NCBI RefSeq assembly: GCF_036785885.1
Contig: NC_092317.1
Location: 8,124,501-8,188,500 of the forward strand
DNA: 64,000 bases
Direction: 5' to 3'
Source of the DNA: Coffea arabica
Taxonomy: Eukaryota; Streptophyta; Magnoliopsida; Gentianales; Rubiaceae
The first letter of the stretch is position 1; the number at the start of each line of letters is the position of its first letter. A program made the position numbers and the translations under genes. Shown piece after piece: positions 14,722 through 59,900 of the stretch. Under the pieces are notes generated by a model. It worked only from the letters and a program-made list of their open reading frames with translations, searched no databases and was not told the DNA's origin.

Positions 14722-15205
14722 ATTCTCATGTATAAGCCTTTTAGTTTGATTCTTGATGAACCTAAATCTAAAGGCTTTGTAGCTCATCAAATTGAATTGC
14801 AAGGCTGTTGCAGCTTTTCCAACCGCAGAAGTACAAGAGTCGGCTTGTTTTTCTAGTGGCATTTGGCTATCTTGGAAGGCTTCAAAGATTGGCATTTGGC
14901 TATCTTATTCCGAAATCCATCATCAGCTTAATCTTGGGCTTTGGATAGGGTTTGAATTTGCAAAAGATCCGATGCATTGACATACCTAATTCTCATGTAT
15001 AAGCCTTTTAGTTTGATTCTTGATGAACCTAAATCTAAAGGCTTTGTAGCTCATCAAATTGAATTGCAAGGCTGTTGCAGCTTTTCCAACCGCAGAAGTA
15101 CAAGAGTCGGCTTGTTTTTCTAGTGGCATTTGGCTATCTTGGAAGGCTTCAAAGATTGGCATTTGGCTATCTTATTCCGAAATCCATCATCAGCTTAATC
15201 TTGGG
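14685..15205 (+). repeat. 267-bp tandem duplication
   Basis: Two almost identical direct units, 14685-14951 and 14952-15205, contain the right end of the hAT element plus about 215 bp of flank. Each unit itself has an internal direct repeat of GGCATTTGGCTATCTT. The junction shows shared sequence (CTTTGGAT then GGTTGAATTTGC-like) on both sides, pointing to unequal recombination or slippage. Near-identity suggests a recent event. Open frames at 14792-14980 and 15075-15290 lie in the units but have no known motif. Confidence 0.9.
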
Positions 15206-15943
15206 ACTCTATTCAACAGGTAATCTTGGAAGTCAGTCAATATTACTTGAAGGTGATTTAATCTTGTTTGGTGAGCCTTCAATCCCGTAAACAAAGATTA
15301 TGAGACATACTGTATCATATATGGAGATTTTCTATGGTACATCAGCCCAGAAAATTAATTTGGAAAATTCTAAGTTGTATGCCTCACCCTAATGTTAGTA
15401 GGTAGATCCACTGCTAGAAAGTTGAGTAATAAAATATTGGGCGTTATTTGGGAGTTCCAATCATTCAAGGCAGAATCACTAAGTCGACTTATACATGTAT
15501 TATGTACTTTTGTTGACAAAGTGAGGAGCAAATTATCTAATTAAAAAGAGAAAAATCTTTTCTGGTTTTCTTTGTGAAAACCAAAATCCCAAAAGTTTGA
15601 GTGAGATTATGAATTTGGCGATATTTGTCAAATAAATAAAGCTTTTTAGACAATTATCACAACTCATAATCCAGTTAAAAATTTCAGACAAGAAGAGAGA
15701 TACTGTATGTCTATTTTCCTGAGAACATATCTTCCTCGAAATCACTTCAAAATAGCCCTAGTTTGGACACATGCACGCAGATAAGGTTTAATCAACACTT
15801 GAGTAATCAATTTTCACGGCATTCAACCCTTCATGTTTCATTTTGTCACATCCCAATACTCCATACTTATTGAGAAAGTCTAAAATAAGACATTATTCCT
15901 ACACCTACACGGCAGAATAACTTAGAAAAGGCAATGAGAAGTA
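15206..15943. other. Intergenic, 3' side of the SAUR gene
   Basis: No gene motif in either strand. It probably contains the 3' untranslated region of the minus-strand SAUR gene at its right edge. Confidence 0.55.
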
Positions 15944-16471
15944 CTAATTGATGTTCAGCAATCTGGAGGGAGTGAGAAGTTCGTATGGACTAAAAGGACT
16001 GCGGGAGCCATATGCAAATCCACCACCGGCTGATGAATCAGAATCATCAACCATGGCCTCTTTCCCGCTATCCATCTCAGCCAAAACTTTGTAAAAAAAG
16101 ATCAATATCACATGGAAGCAAAAGAGGGCCTTCATTGCTACATGCATACTCCAATTCAGCATCTTGAACAGCGGATGATTAGCACATTTTGCCTTGATGA
16201 CAAATCTTTGTTTCGCAGGACCAACATACACTGAAAAACAACCTTTAGGGGCAATCTTATACCTTGTTTTGTACTCATCATGATTTTGCTGGGGTTTTTC
16301 ATCTGATCCAACACAATGCCATGATTTACTCTTCGACAAAAAAATGATTGTAGCACCCTCCATTCTTGAAGATTTTGGAGGAAGGCTTTCAAAAGATAAA
16401 GAAACCACTAAATTCTTGATCGTTGAATAGTTCTTCCATTTGCTCTTTCCACTATCCATAAGCCAAGGCAA
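15944..16471 (-). CDS. SAUR: SAUR-family protein with a switched frame
   Basis: Intronless frame of 175 residues; the second Met (residue 5, giving MDSGKSKWKNYS) is an equally good start. SAURs are small auxin-induced proteins, many of which control growth through PP2C.D phosphatases and plasma-membrane H+-ATPases. The family is shown by KSKSWHC (47-53), APKGCFSVYVGPAKQRFVIK (74-93), ANHPLFKM (97-104), FYKVLAEMD (126-134) and the tail GGGFAYGSRSPFSP (149-162) with a final TPSRLL. Between residues 105 and 125 the frame differs from the family. The next frame reads AELEYACSNEGPLLLPCDI, the conserved SAUR core, so a frameshift just after FKM (about 16162) and another in a 7-T run at about 16092-16098 cancel each other. 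The protein keeps its ends but loses the core. It may be a decaying paralogue, a novel variant or a sequence error. Confidence 0.85.
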   Translation of the reverse strand: MPWLMDSGKSKWKNYSTIKNLVVSLSFESLPPKSSRMEGATIIFLSKSKSWHCVGSDEKPQQNHDEYKTRYKIAPKGCFSVYVGPAKQRFVIKAKCANHPLFKMLNWSMHVAMKALFCFHVILIFFYKVLAEMDSGKEAMVDDSDSSAGGGFAYGSRSPFSPYELLTPSRLLNIN

Positions 16472-18197
16472 AAAATTGTTAAGTTGTCAGACCATACAAA
16501 ATTACAAAAACTACCAATCATGAAAATCACAAAATACTAGTACTACTATATACTTGCAATACTCGAGCACTTTGGCTTCGCTTTGACAAATTCTAGTAAG
16601 TAATTTTTCTATCTCTGCTGTCATATATATGGCCCTTGGGAGAAAGTCCCATAAGGGATGAAATCGATGAAAGTGCGCTGCTAATTTGATCTATCCGTCA
16701 GTCGGAGAGGCCGCAAACGCTGTATAGTTCCCCACAGAAGGTAAATACTAATGACCCAAATTATCTAACGTCTTATGTGAACTCATGGACTGGACAGCCT
16801 TGATGTGGTGAACAGATACCTAATTGAATCTGAACAAAAAATTTCAGCCCTTTTTCTTGATTGATTTTTTTTTTCTGTAAAGAGAAATCCATCAAGAAAT
16901 GAGTGAGACAATAATGCCTCGAACAACCGATTGACTTGGGAAAAGATAAAGCATGATTTGTTTTCTTGTGTTTTTGAGAGGTACGCAATTGTTGTTGATA
17001 GGACGGCTGATCCTATTAAACAATTGAGATTATTGTACCATAGAGCTTAATTGTTTTAACAATTCAAAAATGAATCTTTTTTTTTGGTCAATCGACAGTA
17101 ATTCATAAATGAATCATGAATGTGGTGAATTTTCCTCCAATATCCCGTACCTTTCAAGAATCTAAACTATTAGCTTTTTCTTTCTTTCTTTCTTTTTTTT
17201 TTTGTCTTTTTTAGTTTAAGAGAAGATTCCAAACCTTTTCTAGAAAATGAGTTTAAAAGTTGAATCAAGAATTTTATGATCACGTACTAGTATTCCTACC
17301 AACTAAGCTAGATATTGGGTACAAGAATGAGCCTTTTATTCACACCTTTAGGCATGATATATTTGACCCCGAATTTGTTTAAATTTCTGTGTCTTTATTT
17401 TATTGACTATTCAATTTACCAAATATAAGAAATTTCATAGCAGAATCAGGTCTATATACTTTCTTAAACTTTGCGCTTTTATAATTTTAATTATTTGTTT
17501 AGTTGGCAGGATGCAAAATTGGTTTTGTAGTGCCTGTGTACTCTTTAAGCCGGATTACATTTCCTTGTACCTAAGATTCATATATAACGTCCAAGATTCA
17601 CACCCACTTTGTCTTTTCCTTTCAACTTATTTGTGCCTTGAATTATCTTCTGTATTGTTTAAAATTATGTGGGTTTAAAAAATTTCAAGCAATTTGGAAA
17701 TTAATGATCTCATATTTGATCTAATAAACTCGTTTCCATCATTCTTTTTGACACGTAACAAATTTTGAATAGCTAATACTAAATTTCCCTTAGATCGCAG
17801 AACTTTAAAAGTTGTCATTGTACTTCGTGCCTTTAGGATTAATGATGGTCCAGTTAGATGATTAATCCTTGACTTTCTCTCCAAAATTAATAGTACTTTC
17901 TCATGATGCTCTTTGGTACTGATAATATGTAATTTTTGCTTCTTTTGCTCCTTTTTCAATTAATTTTATGATTTTATCGAATCGAAAACAGATGCTTTCT
18001 ATCGTTCACATAACAAAAATTGGGACGAAGAATATAGATTATTACTCGTAAAGTTTGTTGGAATATAGATTATGCATAGAAAAGTTTTCATAGCATATAA
18101 TACTTTCTGTATAAAAACCGAGAAGTCACATATATATTATATAGGCCTTCTCACTTACGGAAATTATCATTGATAATAATAATTAGAGAGAAGGGAG
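16472..18197. other. Intergenic, SAUR promoter side
   Basis: No gene seen. TATA-like strings (TATATAG near 16545, ATATATAT near 16624) lie upstream of the minus-strand SAUR frame. A T-rich run lies at 17177-17215. Small frames at 17403-17678 and 17675-17959 lack motifs. Confidence 0.5.
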
Positions 18198-18723
18198 TCA
18201 AGGGACATAGCACAGGCAGGCGCATCTATGGCCATGTAAAAAGGGACATCTCGCTGTGGAGTTTGGCCACCTCGCGTGGCAATCTCTAACACATTGCGCT
18301 ACGCTTGATCTGAGTCCAAGGTGCTTCAGCGTAACTTTGGAATCCTCGAACCCTCCTGCATTTGGGGCTTCTTCAGCTGTACATGTGAGAAAAATTCTAG
18401 GTTAGTATTAATTCTAAGTTCACAAAAACTCATAATCCAATAACCCTTTTTGCTTTTCTTTTTAATCATATGCATTGATTTCGTTTTTCCCATGCGAAAA
18501 TTTCAGTTTTATATATGTAACTTAAAACTGGTCTAGTTTTCTGTCAGAGAGGCAATGTGTAGCAAGTCTAATTAAGATGGCCATATATGCCAATCCAGCG
18601 TACATTTATCTGTTCTTTTTCATAACAACAAGGATTGAGAGAAGAGAGTGAAAAGGAAAAAGTACCAAGATTCGTGACAAAGAGGAGAGAAAGAATGCAG
18701 CAGAGGAGAAGAACTTTTGACAT
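18198..18723 (-). CDS. Small secreted cysteine-rich peptide
   Basis: Two minus-strand exons, 18666-18723 and 18198-18376, join with GT-AG borders into 78 residues. Exon 1 encodes a classic signal peptide (MSKVLLLCCILSLLFVTNLG). A phase-1 intron falls right at its end, the usual layout of plant cysteine-rich peptide genes. The mature part is a polar segment (AEEAPNAGGFEDSK onward) and a cysteine-rich end with spacing C-x3-C-x10-C-x7-C-x-C-x-C (QCVRDC, ARCPF, GHRCACLCYVP). A TATA box sits 62 bp before the ATG. The GxxC and CxC spacing is loosely defensin-like, but it lacks the eight cysteines of plant defensins and I cannot place it in a named family. The likely role is extracellular signalling or defence, inferred only from architecture. 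The intron is 289 bp. Confidence 0.68.
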
Positions 18724-18784
18724 GTTGCAAGACTGATGGGTGCAAATGCAAGTGTTGGGTACTTGAAACTCTGTCTTGTGGATC

Positions 18785-18791
18785 CTTTATA
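18785..18791 (-). promoter_or_regulatory. TATA box of the cysteine-rich peptide gene
   Basis: TATAAAG on the minus strand (within CTGTATAAAGGATCC) lies 62 bp upstream of the ATG at 18723. This would place the transcription start about 30 bases before the ATG. Confidence 0.55.
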
Positions 18792-18966
18792 CAGGCCATA
18801 GAGTGGTGTGTTCTTTTTAATGATGTCTTCTTAAAGATGAAATGGAAATGAGATATTAACAAAATAAATCAATTCAACCCCCAACTACATTCATCCATCC
18901 TATCCTAGGATAGAAGTTTGAGATAACTCGTAAAGTTTGTTGGGATTACTTTATATGCATTAATTA

Positions 18967-19422
18967 CTGCCTCCGTCCTGTAAAGATAGACCGATTTCTT
19001 TTTTCACATAAATTAAGAAATTTAGCTAATGTAGTTATAATAATTATTTTTTATTCGTACTTTCCTCAAATACCCCTTGTTAATATTAGATCATTCATTC
19101 AAAGTAAGAGGTACATATTACTATATTATTCTTGGAACTTAAAGTAATTTATTAGTTTTTCAATACAAGAGTCAATTACATTAATGTTACATGTTTGACT
19201 AAAATAAATAACAAAAATAAAATTGCCAAACAATCAAACTTTTCAATTTGAACCCATTAGAAGGCAACTAATATGTATTCAAAAATTTGTAATAACTATA
19301 TACATTAAATATGGGTATATTAGTAAAATAACAAATTAACTATTCTTTAAAGAAGGAAATAAGTCGATAATTTGGGACATACACAAAAGCAAAGCGAGTT
19401 TATCTTTATGGGATAGAGGGAG
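18967..19422. mobile_element. Stowaway-like MITE (Tc1/mariner)
   Basis: Inverted ends CTGCCTCCGTCCTGTAAAGA and, in reverse complement, CTCCCTCTATCCCATAAAGA are the familiar CTCCCTCCGTCC termini of plant Stowaway elements. TA dinucleotides flank both ends (18965-18966 and 19423-19424). At 456 bp it is longer than most Stowaways and carries no coding frame. Confidence 0.85.
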
Positions 19423-19537
19423 TATATGTTGACCAACTTTATTCATCCTAATTTTGTTGCTATATTTTATTGAGTTTTCAATTTACCTACATCAAAAATT
19501 GCTACAAGTTAAACCATCAATTCAAGCATATCACCGT

Positions 19538-20689
19538 GCTTACAAGGTGAAGTAGAAGTTCTAATATCTCGGAGTAGCGGATTCTTAGTTTTCAGTCTTG
19601 ACTCGATTGAGAACTCGACCATGGGAAAAAAAAATGAAAAATCAGTCATTTAAGAAAACCTTACAAAGAGAAGTGTTTCAATAGCATAATTTCCCACTAT
19701 AGCATAAGTTGGGCTAATGAGTGCATAAGGTCTGGTTTGATTTGGATGTAATTTCAGTTAGTCAGGTCCATGAGTATTGCAAGATGATTTGTATGTCTCG
19801 TACAGATAGGGATTGAAAAACCCAATATCCATGGGTAGCTTACCGATGATTAATTTGATTAGATGATTGATGGGTTATCGATTAGGGTTTGGTATTGATG
19901 AATAGTTACCAATGTATAATCTGATAGAATTTAATAAGAGGACCCTAAATGCTTGATATTCAATATATATATATATATATATATAATATGTGTGTGTTTT
20001 CCAATTTAATAGTTCGATAACACGTTTGGTAATTTTATGACCCAATAACATATAGCTTTGACCTAACACAAATAAAGATAATCATAATTAAAATAAAAAA
20101 AATGTTGATTTAACCCTTCATTGAATGTTGAATTTTTCTCATGCAAGCTCTATAGCTTTACACAAGTTTAAAACTCAATACAGTGTGCTTATTTAATATG
20201 ATGTATGTATTGGTTTTAGTTTACTGAACGCTAATTTTTCTTTTTTGAACTATTCAACTTAGTGGATACAAGGTACCGATGGGTAATCCAAACCTACGAT
20301 TAAGAGGATTTGATAATGGAATTAAAACTAGTAGAATTACCCAATAGGATTTAGTAAAATATTTAGATATGTGGGATAGAATTTGGTAAAAGAGATCTTT
20401 TAGGGCATCCAACCCGATGCTATCTCTAATTACAAACAATACATAATCAAAACCTAGTCCTTTGTTTAAAAAATAAAGCGAAAATTGGAAAACAAGAAAG
20501 TTGAGGTTGATTTGCAAGAGTAGAAATGACTAATGAGTCACACCACAGCATTTAGTATGATATTGGTGACATTGCACACTAATTTGACTCACTTTGTCAA
20601 TTTTTGGGGTTGAAGTCAAGTATCTTAACTTGTTTCCAAAAAAAAAAAAAAAGAAAAAGGAAGAAGGCATTTTATCTTAAGAGAAGCCA
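19538..20689 (+). repeat. 1.1-kb dispersed repeat, copy 2
   Basis: Second copy of the segment at 6526-7639, in the same orientation and about 13 kb away, with the same nested hAT-like element. This copy has an expanded TA run (19963-19984) where copy 1 has only a short TA stretch. Confidence 0.8.
19807..20428. mobile_element. Nested hAT-like non-autonomous element, copy 2
   Basis: Same element as 6795-7390. The left end reads TAGGGATTG and the right end CTATCTCTA, slightly more decayed than copy 1. The flanks CGTACAGA and ATTACAAA match copy 1, so both copies descend from one insertion. Confidence 0.5.
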
Positions 20690-26290: not shown

Positions 26291-27850
26291 TCAGCTTGAA
26301 GGTTCTGTGATCTTCTTAACCATTCCGTTTTCATTATTGAGTTGAGCAGAAATCACTGAAACTATTTCTGGACGTACAAGTGCACTCAACTTTACAACCT
26401 CAATAACTTGCTCTTGCAATTCAGGAAGTTTGTGTTCCTCTAGAACTATAACCTGATTTTGAATTTCAGGAAGCTTTTGCTCAACAGCTTTCTTGGCATT
26501 CTTGTAAATCAAATACAGTACCATTTGAAGGATCCCAAAGAGGAAACCTAGTATATTGGGAATCTATAGACGATCCAAAATAGAAAATAGCATTAGTATT
26601 TGAAACGTAGAATTAAAAACACCAGTGTAAAATATGGAGGATTGTACTTACAGCAATGTTATAATCTTTGCGCAGAAAGCCGTAGAAGAACCACATAATA
26701 GCACTTAATGTGAGGAAAAACGATGGAAGAAATGGCATGTATTCAACGCTCTTGGTTCGTATGACTTGTCTCTGTGGATTAAAAAGTTCAAGGAAAAACT
26801 ATTTGTATCAAAACTATAATCAATATAAAATTAATGAAGGAAAAAAATTGCATGTATATTAGTGAAAATTATGTTTGCAAATACTTACCACTATGGCCAA
26901 AGGTGCCACAAAAACACAAAATGAGAACACTAGACCAATCCATCCAACAATTCTTGCACGGGTTTTGCCAGTTGAAATTAACTGAGTTAGGAGAATTATA
27001 GAGCCAAATCCCATGACAACTAGCAAAGCAAGTAGTTTTGCGGTTTGAATCTGCAATTTAGCACAAAGTAATTAGTCGACCAAGGATTACTAATAACGCT
27101 CGAGATTATGATTAGTAGATAATATAATTTGCTTAGTACCCTAGCTCGTCTTGGTGCATAAAAGAGGTAGTAGCAAAGGTACACAGTTTGAAAGAAACAG
27201 CCAACAGAGTTTATGGTAATGAGGAGAGTTGTGTCTGGTTTGAGGAATGCATAGTATATCCACAGCATTGCACTGAATAAGCTAACCACATAAGGAACGG
27301 ATTGAAACCCTTCAGTCGATTTCTTCTTGTAAATGCAGTAGAATGTTGGCCTGCAGTTAAAAAATAAAATTAAGAGAACATTCTTACAGTTATGCTCAAA
27401 ACAAAATCATGCAGCTAAGCACGTTATTAGCTGCCACAAGGAAAAGGAAGCAAACGATTGACTCACAGCGGTGCAAGGTAGACCATGAATGAAACAATAT
27501 TACCTGCAAAACAACGAAACATGAGCACGAAGTATTAGATGTTTAAACAAAATCCCAAGAAAACTTCATTCTTAATGCAAGAAAATATACAAAATGAAAA
27601 AAGTAAACCAAGATGAAAGCAAAATAACTCATTTCTCATGACATGCAACGTGATAAACTGTTTCCCTCGATGTTGTATGAATCGTAACAATTTAACTACA
27701 TCTTGTTTGTTCACTTTTCTCTCTTCACGACAAATTGTTTTCTTGGGTGCGTTATCAGCCACTTGCTTAAATGTAATACTAGGTTTGACTCATTTTGCAT
27801 ATGTAATTAGTCATACCTAGGAGGCCAAAGATGAAAGCCAATTGAGCCAT
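26291..27850 (-). CDS. SWEET: Clade III SWEET sugar transporter (gene 1)
   Basis: Six minus-strand exons, 27817-27850, 27467-27503, 27140-27350, 26889-27050, 26652-26771 and 26291-26563, give 278 residues with the exon sizes and phases standard for plant SWEETs (37, 211, 162, 120 nt internal). SWEETs are seven-helix facilitators made of two MtN3/saliva triple-helix bundles; clade III members mainly move sucrose across the plasma membrane. Visible signatures are [19 protein letters not shown] (5-23), [20 protein letters not shown] (32-51) with [16 protein letters not shown] (67-75), TKSVEYMPF (154-162), [10 protein letters not shown] (169-178) and [10 protein letters not shown] (189-198). Pocket residues known from AtSWEET13 are all present: V19, S50, W54, N71, the helix-5 Val, S170, W175-equivalent and N191. 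The C-terminal tail is long, with a [19 protein letters not shown] repeat-like part. Looks fully functional. It shares a strand with gene 2. Confidence 0.96.
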
Positions 27851-42314: not shown

Positions 42315-42386
42315 AGGTCCTACCGGGAGTCGAACCCAGGTCGCTGGATTCAAAGTCCAGAGTGCTAACCACTACACCATAGAACC
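42315..42386 (-). tRNA. tRNA-Gln (UUG)
   Basis: A 72-base minus-strand cloverleaf. The acceptor arm GGTTCTA (42386-42380) pairs with TAGGACC, with discriminator T. The D-arm region is TGGTGTAGTGGTTAGCA, the anticodon stem CTGGA/TCCAG has loop CTTTGAA, and the T arm is CTGGGTTCGACTCCCGG. The anticodon TTG (complement of 42351-42353) reads the Gln codon CAA. Box A and box B are intact and there is no intron. CCA is not encoded, as expected for a nuclear gene. Confidence 0.97.
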
Positions 42387-50786: not shown

Positions 50787-52955
50787 ATGACCCTCATCCC
50801 CATCCAAAATCCATGGGTGTTCGCCCTTGGTATTCTAGGTAAAAATAGAAAAGAATAGTTTTCTTTCGATATATTTGATAGCATTATACTTCGCTCTCAA
50901 ATTTTAGGTGCCTTTTCATCCTTCAGTGGAATGAAACATGGCAAAACTTTATATGCGCATGACATTAGGTAGAAAACAAAAAGTTAAACCACATTAAATA
51001 TAACAGCATCGTACGCATAAAATAAACAATATAGCTTTCTGAATTTTTAATTTTTCTGGGCTATGTTGGTTTTGCAACACCGATCATACAAGGATGCATG
51101 GAATGAAAAATGGGAGGACATTGGACAGTGTATATGTGATGCTTACTCAGTATCTTGTGTTCATGTCGAGCAGACATTTTAGGGATTGTATTCATATTCT
51201 TCATTGTTTCTTAACAATCAGTTTTTCAGGCAACTTGGTCTCCTTCTTGGTGTATCTTGCTCCAGTGTAAGTCATATTCTCGTATAGATATACACATTTG
51301 TTGCCCTCTCAGTAATTTTCATGATCAATGACTAACCAAGAAGAATATTTCGACATGATTTTCAGGCCAACGTTTCGTAGGATTGCCAAGAAAAAATCAA
51401 CTGAAGGGTTTCATTCATTCCCCTACGTGGTTTCGTTATTCAGTGCCATGCTTTGGGTTGATTATGCCAGAGTCAAATCAAATGTGCTTCTGGTTACCGT
51501 CAACTCCATTGGCTGTCTCATAGAGACCATCTACATTGCCTTCTTCATTGTTCATGCACCAAAGAAGCACAGAGTACGTAGCATATCTATCAAGAAAAAA
51601 AAAAACATGCAGCAATATTTTCCTTCTTCAAGGGCTTTTTTTTTTCTCCTCACGATTTTAATGAGCTGATTTGAACTTAAACTGGCCTTTGCAGATATTC
51701 ACTTTGAAGCTTGTAATTCTTCTGAACTTCATTGGTTTTGGATCGATTTGCATTCTGACCGAATATCTGGCCAAAGGAGCTCGAAAGACTCAAGCCCTAG
51801 GTTGGCTTTGTGTTGCTTCTTCCGCGATTGTATACATTGCACCTCTAAGCGTAATGGTAAGGATGCTAAAAACGGCTCATTTTATGCTAAATTCTCCTTG
51901 CTAGGCCTTAAATCATGATCTAGTTATCCAACTTGAACGTTTAATTCAATGATTTGTCACTTTTTAATTGCTTGATGCAATGAGGATATTTCACCATGGA
52001 AAATCTGAGGATTGTTCTATCAATTTTGTCGAGTTTTGCTCAACTAATCTTCAACAAGATACTTTGTTGGTAGCAAACTTCGTACGTGTGCTTGTCTTTT
52101 AGTTTTATCTTCTGCTTACTTTTGTTTTTTTTTTTTTTCTTTGTGTTGTGCAATGCAGAAGCAGGTCATAAGTACTAGAAGTGTGGAGTTCATGCCATTC
52201 TGGTTATCATTTTCCCTTGTTTTGAATGCTCTTACGTGGTCCTCTTATGGTTTACTACTTAAGGACATACATATCACGGTAATTAATTTCTTGCTCTTAT
52301 TGAAGATTTATTTACGAGAATCACTAGCAATAATTCCTAATTAAACACTAATGATCTTTTAGAAAGGTTTTATTTCCTTGAGATATTCTTTAGTGCTTAG
52401 GTTAAATCAGATTTAGATTGGGCATTATTTGATTGGTTGACACAAGATTAATTATGTGTCTCAATATATTCCTACGTACTAGTTTTTGTGAATTGCGAGT
52501 ATTCCAATCATTACCTTAAACCTAAGAGAACAGATGATATGTTCTAAATCACAAAGTCATGAAAAAGGTCAATATTGGTTTATAGAAATCATCATTTTTT
52601 TTCTTCAATTTAATCGAGGTTTTTGAAGAACTCATGATTATCGAATTTCATATTCCATTAATTGTCAATTTTTCTCGTTGATCATGCTTTTTCCATTTTA
52701 ATACAGGTTCCCAGCGTAGTGGGATTCATTTTTGGGACGATACAAATGGCCCTATACGTAATATACAAGAATATCAAGATGAAACCAGAAGAGCCAAAGC
52801 TCCCCACTATCATGAAGCCCATCACAATCATCCCATCTGAGATACTACCACTAGGCTCTTTGCCAATTGATGAAACCAATAAGGCTAAGAATGAAAAAGT
52901 GCAAGAACTAATCCAACAAGGAGAAAGGGAACAAGATGCATCCCATCAGGTTTAG
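50787..52955 (+). CDS. SWEET: Divergent clade III SWEET transporter (gene 3)
   Basis: Six plus-strand exons, 50787-50838, 51230-51266, 51366-51573, 51695-51856, 52159-52278 and 52707-52955, give 275 residues. All splice sites are GT-AG with family phases; exon 3 is one codon shorter (208 nt) than in genes 1 and 2. Signatures are [18 protein letters not shown] (13-30), [20 protein letters not shown] (38-57), [19 protein letters not shown] (159-167) and [17 protein letters not shown]. Unusual residues are these: MLWIYYA is MLWVDYA (Asp 62). The helix-6 pocket Ser is Asn 176. The near-invariant Asn of helix 7 (xPNxxGF) is Ser 196. The other pocket residues V25, S56, W60, N76, V145 and W180 remain. 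The tail is shorter and differs from those of genes 1 and 2. The open, splice-clean frame argues against a pseudogene; substrate range may be changed. Confidence 0.95.
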
Positions 52956-56930: not shown

Positions 56931-59900
56931 ATGTATGGGGTGGCTCCGCCGCGGAGCTCGGATTCGGATGGTGCCGCTGCCGATGGTGCAGCCTTCGTCA
57001 GGGCTTATCAGACTTGGAAAGGCAGTAATGTGAGTTCAGAATTCTCTATGCTCATTTTCATATGCATAATTTGGAGAAAAGTCAATCAAAGATTAAGTTT
57101 TTTGTAAAAAAATATGTATATATAAATACATAGTAAGAATTGAAATTCTCTTGAGCTCTTTCAGATTATGCAGAATTGAAAGGTTATCAGTAATGGGATC
57201 TTGTTTATTGCTTATGGTTTGTTTGTGAATTTTATTAGATGTATATATATAAATGAATCATCTTTTATTGGTTTCTTTTTTTCTTTTCAACTTTTTCTAC
57301 TGCTGGGAATTCCAATCTTAACTGTTATGCAGATCATGGATTGGAAGCATAAAGGGGAAAAGTACGAGGGTATTCTCTCTATGGTTCTGAATCAAAATTC
57401 ATGTGTTTAAGCTTGGAAAAAATCCAAATTGCGCTGCCCACATCAATATTCAGATAAACTAATTCCAACACAGACTTGAAAGTGAATATTTGCGCAGAGT
57501 TTTATTGGTTGATTATATGAAGGATGGAACTATCTACAAGTTGCGTGTATAAGTACTTATCCTCATTGTATCAAATTATAGTGAAGATCCTTGCTTCTGA
57601 ATCCATATGCGTGGAAACCTCACTTTGGAATGTATATGCTGAGACATATATAGCAAACTTAATGTACATGCCATGATTGTCACTGATATCACATCTAATA
57701 TAGCATGAAACTACAGTCGCCTAAAGAAGTATGTTTATCAAAAGATTCTGTTGTTGTGCTTAATTCTTCTTGGAAGCAAGAAACCTTGTCATGACTCAAA
57801 GTCATATTCTGTGGTTAGATAACATTGATGAAGTTCCATTGCTTACCAAATTTCCCTTGCAATAAAGAAAAAGAAAAAAGAATCTTTTGTCCTCTATTCT
57901 AGTATGTTTGTGTAGCAGATCCTGAATAGTGCATAATTTGCCTGATCTGGTTTTTCATCTTACCTTGCAGAAATTTTTCCTTTGGGGACGATTCATTTTT
58001 GGGCCTGATGTGAGATCACTGTTTCTAACGATATTCCTCATAATTGCTCCTGTTGCTGTTTTCTGCGTCTTCGTTGCCAGAAAGCTGATGGATGATTTTT
58101 CTGATCATTGGGGCATATCAATCATGGTTGTAGTCATCGTTTTCACGGTTTATGTAAGTCCATATACTCCTTTCTTGTATTCCATGAGAATAAAAATGTC
58201 TGTGGTTGAATGATGGATGTGCTATGTGTAAACTTCTTGGCGTGCCAGACTTCCTAAGATTTCAAACTTTGCGCCCAATCCTGTTGTCTGCATTTGTGTT
58301 GATCAGTAGACAATCCTGTGTCCAATATGATCACATACTTTTCATTACTGTTTTTCATCGATTAAATGGCATGATCCCACATTTCCACTTTTTAGAAATA
58401 CCAAAATACCTTCACCTTGATACTTAAATAATTGACGAAGGATTAATACGGAAGGTACTTAATAGGCTGGAGATACATTAGAGATATTATATTACATGTG
58501 GAGTCTGTTGTAGTGTTGTGTAGTGAAATCTTGCGAAATTCTCTCTTACCCTTTGTGTTTTAGGTAGATGACCTATGAATGAAAAGATTTATTTAGAAGA
58601 ATCATATGGACTAAGTTGGTGTCAATCATTCGATGGCACCATATAAATACTCATATCCAAACTTTGGGGTTCTCTTTCTCAAGTAGCTTCCCTTAGCCAT
58701 GTCATCAAACATTTGCTTCCTCAGTTTTAGGTCTTCTCCTACGTTCTTAAAAACAGAAACTCTCATACTTTATGATTCTTTTTCTATGAATTATTGGATC
58801 TTTTTTCAGTTAGATCTCCTTAAACATTTCATCAATATAATATAGTGGATAATTTGAGGCAATTCTTATTAAACTTGATCTTTTTTCCTTGGGGATTTCA
58901 TGTCGTCTTAACTGTATCTCTACTTTTTATTACTGAAGTTTCTTTATTTAGAAGTGTAGAAGTTCAACTTTAATGATTAGAGGAAATTCGCATTTAATTG
59001 GATTGCTGGAGCTAAAAGCTTGTGCTTGTGATAAAGGAAATGAAGTGAGTTACAGCTGCCAAAAAAACCACCAAGTTCAGTAAATAGATGCTGTGGAAAA
59101 TTACCCATGTATGAATATATTAAACATGAATAGTTTAACATGATGGCTCTTGATTTATATATGCCCTACCTTAATTTATTAAATTTCACTCTCACCTAAT
59201 TTGGCAGTAATTTTGCTGCATGTACTTGAGATGAAGGCATGATCTAATATTGAGAAGGATGTGCATCTGCTCCTTAAAATTGTGACTAATTAATGGATCC
59301 TTTTTCTCTTCGATCTTTTACAGGTGTAAGGATAACTTATTTTGTCCTTTATTTATTGGCTAAATCATGTAGGGTAATTAACTGATGGGTTTTTATTTTT
59401 CTCATTAGGATGTGGTCATTCTCCTCCTGACTTCTGGAAGAGATCCTGGTATAGTTCCTCGTAGTGCACGTCCTCCGGAGCCAGAAGCCTATGAAGGCAG
59501 TCCAGAAATAGAGCCTGGCCAAACTCCACAGTTACGTCTTCCTCGCATCAAAGATGTATATGTGAATGGCGTTGTAGTGAAAGTTAAATATTGTGATACC
59601 TGCATGCTATATAGGCCTCCACGTTGTTCACACTGTTCCATATGCAATAACTGTGTGGAACGATTTGATCATCACAGTCCGTGGGTCGGACAATGCATTG
59701 GATTGGTAAGTATTGTTATGTCTAATTATTGTTTGGGAAAAAAATCCAATGATATAGGCAAATAGTTATTTCAGCTTCGTTTGGACCATGAAGCTGTTTT
59801 TACATTTCTTTTCATTAGGTGATTTTTGATGTTTTGACAAAAAAAAGGTTTACATTCTGGCTGTATATTTTTCAAGAATACAGCAATTAGACACTTATTT

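Follow-up and report, generated by a model that had tools for sequence, protein, structure and literature searches.

A candidate family of defensin-like secreted peptide genes at linked loci on homeologous chromosomes of Coffea arabica

We analysed a 64,000-nucleotide stretch of Coffea arabica DNA (the window; NC_092317.1, positions 8,124,501 to 8,188,500) and found on its minus strand, at 18198–18723, what is probably a real gene of the nuclear genome, coding for a small secreted peptide rich in disulfide bonds; its two-exon structure is a gene model. We find strong support for a split gene that encodes a predicted secreted six-cysteine peptide and has its intron at the border of the signal peptide. 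On balance we take the product to be a divergent defensin-like secreted peptide. Its gene is linked to two others on the same chromosome, and three more lie on the homeologue. Its role is most likely antimicrobial or otherwise defensive, an assignment that we make tentatively.

Gene model and copies in the genome

The model predicts a 78-residue precursor in which a hydrophobic leader and then a segment of 28 residues precede a cationic domain of 31. The parts of the gene and of the block in which it lies are as follows.

18786..18791, minus strand: TATA box TATAAA, read in the sequence; TATAAAGGAT in all six family copies (alignment)
18666..18723, minus strand: exon 1, which supplies the start codon and the signal peptide MSKVLLLCCILSLLFVTNL; 58 nt in all six copies
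18377..18665, minus strand: intron, 289 bp, GT-AG, phase 1, with a GT donor at 18665 and an AG acceptor whose last base is 18377
18198..18376, minus strand: exon 2, running from the linker or pro-region through the six-cysteine domain to the TGA stop; relatives in genome searches
18294..18376, minus strand: linker or pro-region AEEAPNAGGFEDSKVTLKHLGLRSSVAQ, its first codon completed from exon 1; alignment A1
18201..18293, minus strand: six-cysteine domain C-x3-C-x10-C-x7-C-x-C-x-C-YVP, net positive; alignments A1 and A2
18255..18263, minus strand: N-S-T sequon inside PNSTA, invariant in A1 and A2; putative N-glycosylation site
15947..16486, minus strand: SAUR-type frame (PF02519, E 3.5e-9), in the block shared with the peptide gene
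15000..19540, unstranded: duplicated block with the SAUR and peptide genes; its left end is the query start at 15000

Exon 1 opens with the ATG at 18723, about 63 nt downstream of TATAAA, and codes for MSKVLLLCCILSLLFVTNL plus one nucleotide. Exon 2 ends with the TGA stop at 18200–18198, and its product has 58 residues (P0001). The maximum 11-residue Kyte-Doolittle mean of the leader is 3.25 (five copies computed), and the six-cysteine domain has a charge of +2.5 at pH 7.4. Within the linker or pro-region, PNAGG, DSK and LGxR are invariant in the five sequences of alignment A1. A preliminary description of the locus had proposed a 289-bp intron at the signal-peptide border of a two-exon gene, a signal peptide on exon 1, the spacing C-x3-C-x10-C-x7-C-x-C-x-C and a TATA box at a fitting distance. 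The spacing is exactly as claimed and the two-exon gene holds as a model, with an open frame and a phase 1 GT-AG intron; the leader is hydrophobic, and TATAAA is kept in every copy. Seven in-frame AGs lie ahead of the cysteine domain (W18), of which the chosen acceptor is the first; because six more follow, the exact acceptor and start of exon 2 are model only.

The window also holds SWEET-type sugar transporter frames (PF03083) at 27023–27406 (minus strand) and 51325–51666 (plus strand), about 24 kb apart on opposite strands, a DHHC palmitoyltransferase gene frame (PF01529) at 59409–59762 (plus strand) and a tRNA-Gln gene with anticodon TTG at 42315–42386 (minus strand).

In the window, the cysteine pattern is found a single time in its exact form and a single time in its relaxed form; 150 first-order Markov windows contain neither. 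A piecewise scan of the two homeologous regions, about 288 kb with the window counted in, found the relaxed pattern at six places, all of them family members. The family itself was delimited by one DNA and two protein searches of the genome (1,197,963,845 bases, 131 contigs), in which the best candidates only are scored and exons are read singly. It comprises six places: 8142701 (the window gene), 8057291 and 8063987 on C8, and 8628133, 8542566 and 8549371 on C7. There are hence three loci per chromosome on C7 and C8, which we infer to be a homeologous pair. In the same genome, one exon from a Methyltransf_7 cluster on C18 has the coffee xanthosine methyltransferase 2eg5 as its best, though not identical, match. 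Outside the six places nothing among the best candidates scored had an E below 1. An extra row in one protein search was the first half of a duplicated exon (C8 8057244), and a C12 match with an E of 4.2 was rejected as a family member, no cysteine-rich frame of this kind being present there. The window gene is not a chance arrangement, because five further copies exist in the genome.

The six cysteines are retained in all six exon-2 frames. Donor GTACTT, TATA box and 58-nt exon 1 are likewise common to the six copies, each with its donor in phase 1, 58 nt after the ATG, and introns of 289, 295, 289, 278, 339 and 147 bp. Five of the copies are open under the gene model. In the copy at C8 8057244–8057306 (L014, L003), 47 bp of exon 2 are duplicated in tandem, and with the usual acceptor the frame is shifted; splicing to one of several AGs further downstream would leave its cysteine domain in frame. 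The copies align as two subfamilies, one W18-like and one L005-like.

Selective constraint and duplication of the locus

Comparison of W18 with L005 gave a Ka of 0.37, a Ks of 0.88 and a Ka/Ks of 0.41 (Fisher p from rounded counts, 0.0018). The signal peptide is more conserved than exon 2, with Ka 0.14 and Ka/Ks 0.18 for exon 1 (p 0.020) against Ka 0.46 and Ka/Ks 0.50 for exon 2 (p 0.030). Conservation of the cysteines and a Ka/Ks below 1, which the preliminary description had suggested looking for in relatives, were found within this genome in six of six copies and in this pair, respectively. In a neutral simulation, an equal number and the same kinds of base changes were placed at random in 20,000 runs. 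Expected amino-acid changes were 46.4 against 30 observed, and no run was as low; 4.2% of runs were without a stop and 0.1% retained all six mature cysteines.

It is very improbable, given this conservation, five open copies out of six and W18/L005 exons that align without an indel while the intron has many (DNA alignment), that the loci are a decaying pseudogene family or conserved non-coding DNA. Decay would nonetheless account for the frame-shifting 47-bp duplication in one of the six copies. It would also account for the excess of amino-acid over silent changes in the youngest pairs (5.5 versus 0.5 for L005/L006; 5 versus 0 for L002/L004), which fits relaxed constraint as well. Exon 2 has no third-position excess (18, 25 and 24 differences at codon positions 1, 2 and 3), and this counts against a defensin-like secreted peptide, the reading that we favour. 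Relative to W18, exon 2 of L005 begins one codon later and reaches its stop seven codons further on. The segment before the cysteine domain has a charge at pH 6 of −0.4 in the W18 type and +4.0 in the L005 type, and a charge-neutralising pro-region is therefore not conserved. We read the putative secreted peptide as fast-evolving yet constrained.

The block that carries the SAUR and peptide genes has an inverted copy on the same chromosome; a third unit is more diverged. Breakpoints near 17876/18020 and 19540 are shared and suggest a single old duplication. Four close copies were compared (window 17980–19540; C8 8056105–8057680; C7 8541435–8542950 and 8627900–8629480). Of the aligned two-state sites at which they fall into two pairs, 35 pair the copies from one chromosome and 1 pairs the positional counterparts, so that copies are more alike within a chromosome than between matching positions. 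This pattern would be best explained by gene conversion within each subgenome between inverted arms about 85 kb apart, the alternative being independent duplications.

A further SAUR-like fragment lies in the same interval, at C8 8102577–8102774 and at C7 8581704–8581901, and no adjoining peptide gene was found at either. At C7 8604965–8607601 a unit of about 216 bp is repeated in tandem and contains a conserved hydrophobic frame, LLLLVIIASLFVTIL; the searched C8 region yielded no such row.

Comparison with defensins and other peptide families

The full precursor and five aligned family members had no match in Pfam-A at E up to 10, a range in which the HMMER filters drop most matches above 0.1. 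The PDB search with the 31-residue domain returned nothing. Three PDB hits were dismissed as not meaningful (a TYKY chain, E 0.62; a Rubisco small subunit, E 0.63; a protein named PRD-0038, E 2.9). So was an oligopeptidase A model from NCBIfam (prokaryote library), which matched one of two proteins at E 0.29, far under the cut-off. Rfam had no match over 15500–20000. Six peptide fragments did not occur in text searches of the literature, searches on coffee peptides and the cysteine spacing did not encounter the family in the portions of text available, and papers with similar spellings of the spacing concern another array in the texts examined. The earlier suspicion of a poorly catalogued family is therefore justified as far as Pfam-A, NCBIfam (prokaryote library) and PDB are concerned, in none of which a relative was found. 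As the SPADA paper (PMC3924332) points out, annotation readily overlooks small split genes such as this one.

The group III defensin-like consensus has eight cysteines, C-X5-10-C-X4-6-C-X3-C-X9-15-C-X5-12-C-X-C-X3-C, in the part of PMC3756986 that was available. The first five cysteines of the coffee peptide, C-x3-C-x10-C-x7-C-x-C, fit C3–C7 of the consensus given there. The eight-cysteine array as a whole is absent: C1 and C2 are missing, leaving six mature cysteines rather than eight, and the last spacing is x1 rather than x3. Unlike defensins, the coffee peptide has a 27–28-residue segment before the cysteine domain and a conserved NST. The two share a layout, with the leader on exon 1, one intron just after it and a cationic cysteine domain on exon 2, and L005 has FGKCLCY where the coffee defensin L047 has FGKCRCY. 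Hence the preliminary statement that the spacing does not match plant defensins stands for the missing C1 and C2, the shifted last cysteine and the null profile comparison described below, but not for the first five cysteines or the similar intron.

PF00304 matches 35 places in the genome and none in the peptide cluster, which counts against the defensin-like reading. Four of the 35 were modelled. Each allows an open, leader-keeping phase-1 model, with donors 55, 55, 64 and 73 nt after the ATG compared with 58 in the peptide gene. For one of them, no donor but the phase-1 donor yields an open frame with eight cysteines; the remaining three also have phase-2 donors with open leader-keeping joins, so that the choice of phase 1 is a judgement. 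As models, then, the peptide gene and the coffee defensins have the same two-exon layout with a phase-1 intron after the leader. Placing the inner cysteines in every arrangement yielded a defensin core in the first or last five cysteines in 30 of 14,950 cases (0.2%). Alignment of the family with the four coffee defensins by hhalign, a weak test since both alignments are shallow, covered 6 columns with a score of 11.5. This is no better than shuffles: 92 of 200 in which the cysteines stayed fixed, and 72 of 200 in which every column was shuffled, attained the score.

This lack of profile similarity, together with the absence of two defining defensin cysteines and of any relative in Pfam or PDB, would suit a new plant cysteine-rich fold family unrelated to defensins, its spacing and intron being convergent. 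We regard this as less likely, given how rarely random cysteine arrangements contain the defensin core and given the similar intron model of the coffee defensins. A divergent defensin-like peptide remains our preferred reading, in a qualified sense. That the peptide is a defensin is not supported, in view of the Pfam and profile results, the absent C1 and C2 and the shifted last spacing. That it is laid out like one is supported, and that it works like one is plausible.

Three other families of small cysteine-rich peptides invite comparison. EPF/EPFL peptides, likewise small, secreted and with a pro-region, have C-x3-C near the start of their motif and C-x-C near a Y-x-P end, as does the coffee peptide; their middle cysteines differ. 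The family peptides gave no profile match to EPF/EPFL (PF17181), and EPF matches fall at 18 places in the genome, none of them a peptide locus; the peptide does not fit this family. Cyclotides are known from Rubiaceae and combine a C-x3-C first loop with C-x-C, as in the coffee peptide, their other loops differing in length. PF03784 (cyclotide) matched neither the peptides nor the genome, the genome search having been made without a positive control. Coffeetides are, likewise, Coffea cysteine-rich peptides with a signal peptide, pro-peptide and mature peptide; in the excerpted text of PMC10538209, coffeetides and ginsentides have eight cysteines, a tandem cysteine pair and a hevein-like motif. 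With six cysteines rather than eight and no CC in its mature domain, the coffee peptide lies outside the coffeetides as defined in that text.

Proposed maturation and role

The predicted path of the peptide is as follows. The precursor would enter the ER through its signal peptide, lose its leader near NLA|EE and have its cysteines oxidized in the ER, with N-glycosylation possible at the conserved PNSTA. In the passages available from PMC5116183, CxxxC and CxC (C3, C4, C8 and C9 of the reference array) make up the motif of the cysteine-stabilised helix, with a further two cysteines completing the CS-alpha-beta fold. The spacing of this helix motif is present in all six copies, the pairing being predicted. 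In the coffee peptide, C1–C4 and C2–C5 bonds joining CxxxC with CxC would form the cysteine-stabilised helix. In SlD26, as given in part of PMC7557933, two earlier cysteines pair with the cysteine before CxC and with the last cysteine. The counterparts of these last two in the coffee peptide, C3 and C6, lack their usual partners, defensin C1 and C2, and we propose that they pair with each other. The cationic domain would then act outside the cell.

The cationic domain, the quick change of exon 2 and the turnover of copies lean towards defence; given the conserved blocks and the small number of loci, a signalling ligand is also conceivable. We rank after defence, as a possible but less probable role, a secreted receptor-kinase ligand acting in growth, development, reproduction or pollen-pistil signalling. 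The long pro-like segment, the conserved PNAGG, DSK, PNSTA and C-terminal CYVP blocks, the restriction to three loci per chromosome and the joint duplication with a SAUR gene would all be in keeping with such a ligand. Against it, a cationic domain and a quickly changing exon 2 suit defence just as well, and the EPF matches lie elsewhere in the genome, the peptide itself having no Pfam match.

How a defensin-like peptide of this form could have arisen is more speculative. In a scenario that we consider rather improbable in its entirety, the family is lineage-restricted and descends from a defensin that lost its first strand together with C1 and C2, whereupon the orphaned C3 and C6 rejoined into a minimal helix-plus-hairpin scaffold. 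Block duplication would have kept it beside a SAUR gene and gene conversion would have homogenised its copies; it would now work as an extracellular signal or an antimicrobial particular to its clade.

For coffee researchers, the analysis provides a defined family with three loci per homeologous chromosome and an unusual cysteine array. Its products may act in the apoplastic defence of this crop or in its peptide signalling. If its fold is indeed that of a defensin minus one strand, it would illustrate how the defensin scaffold can be reduced and its disulfide bonds rearranged.
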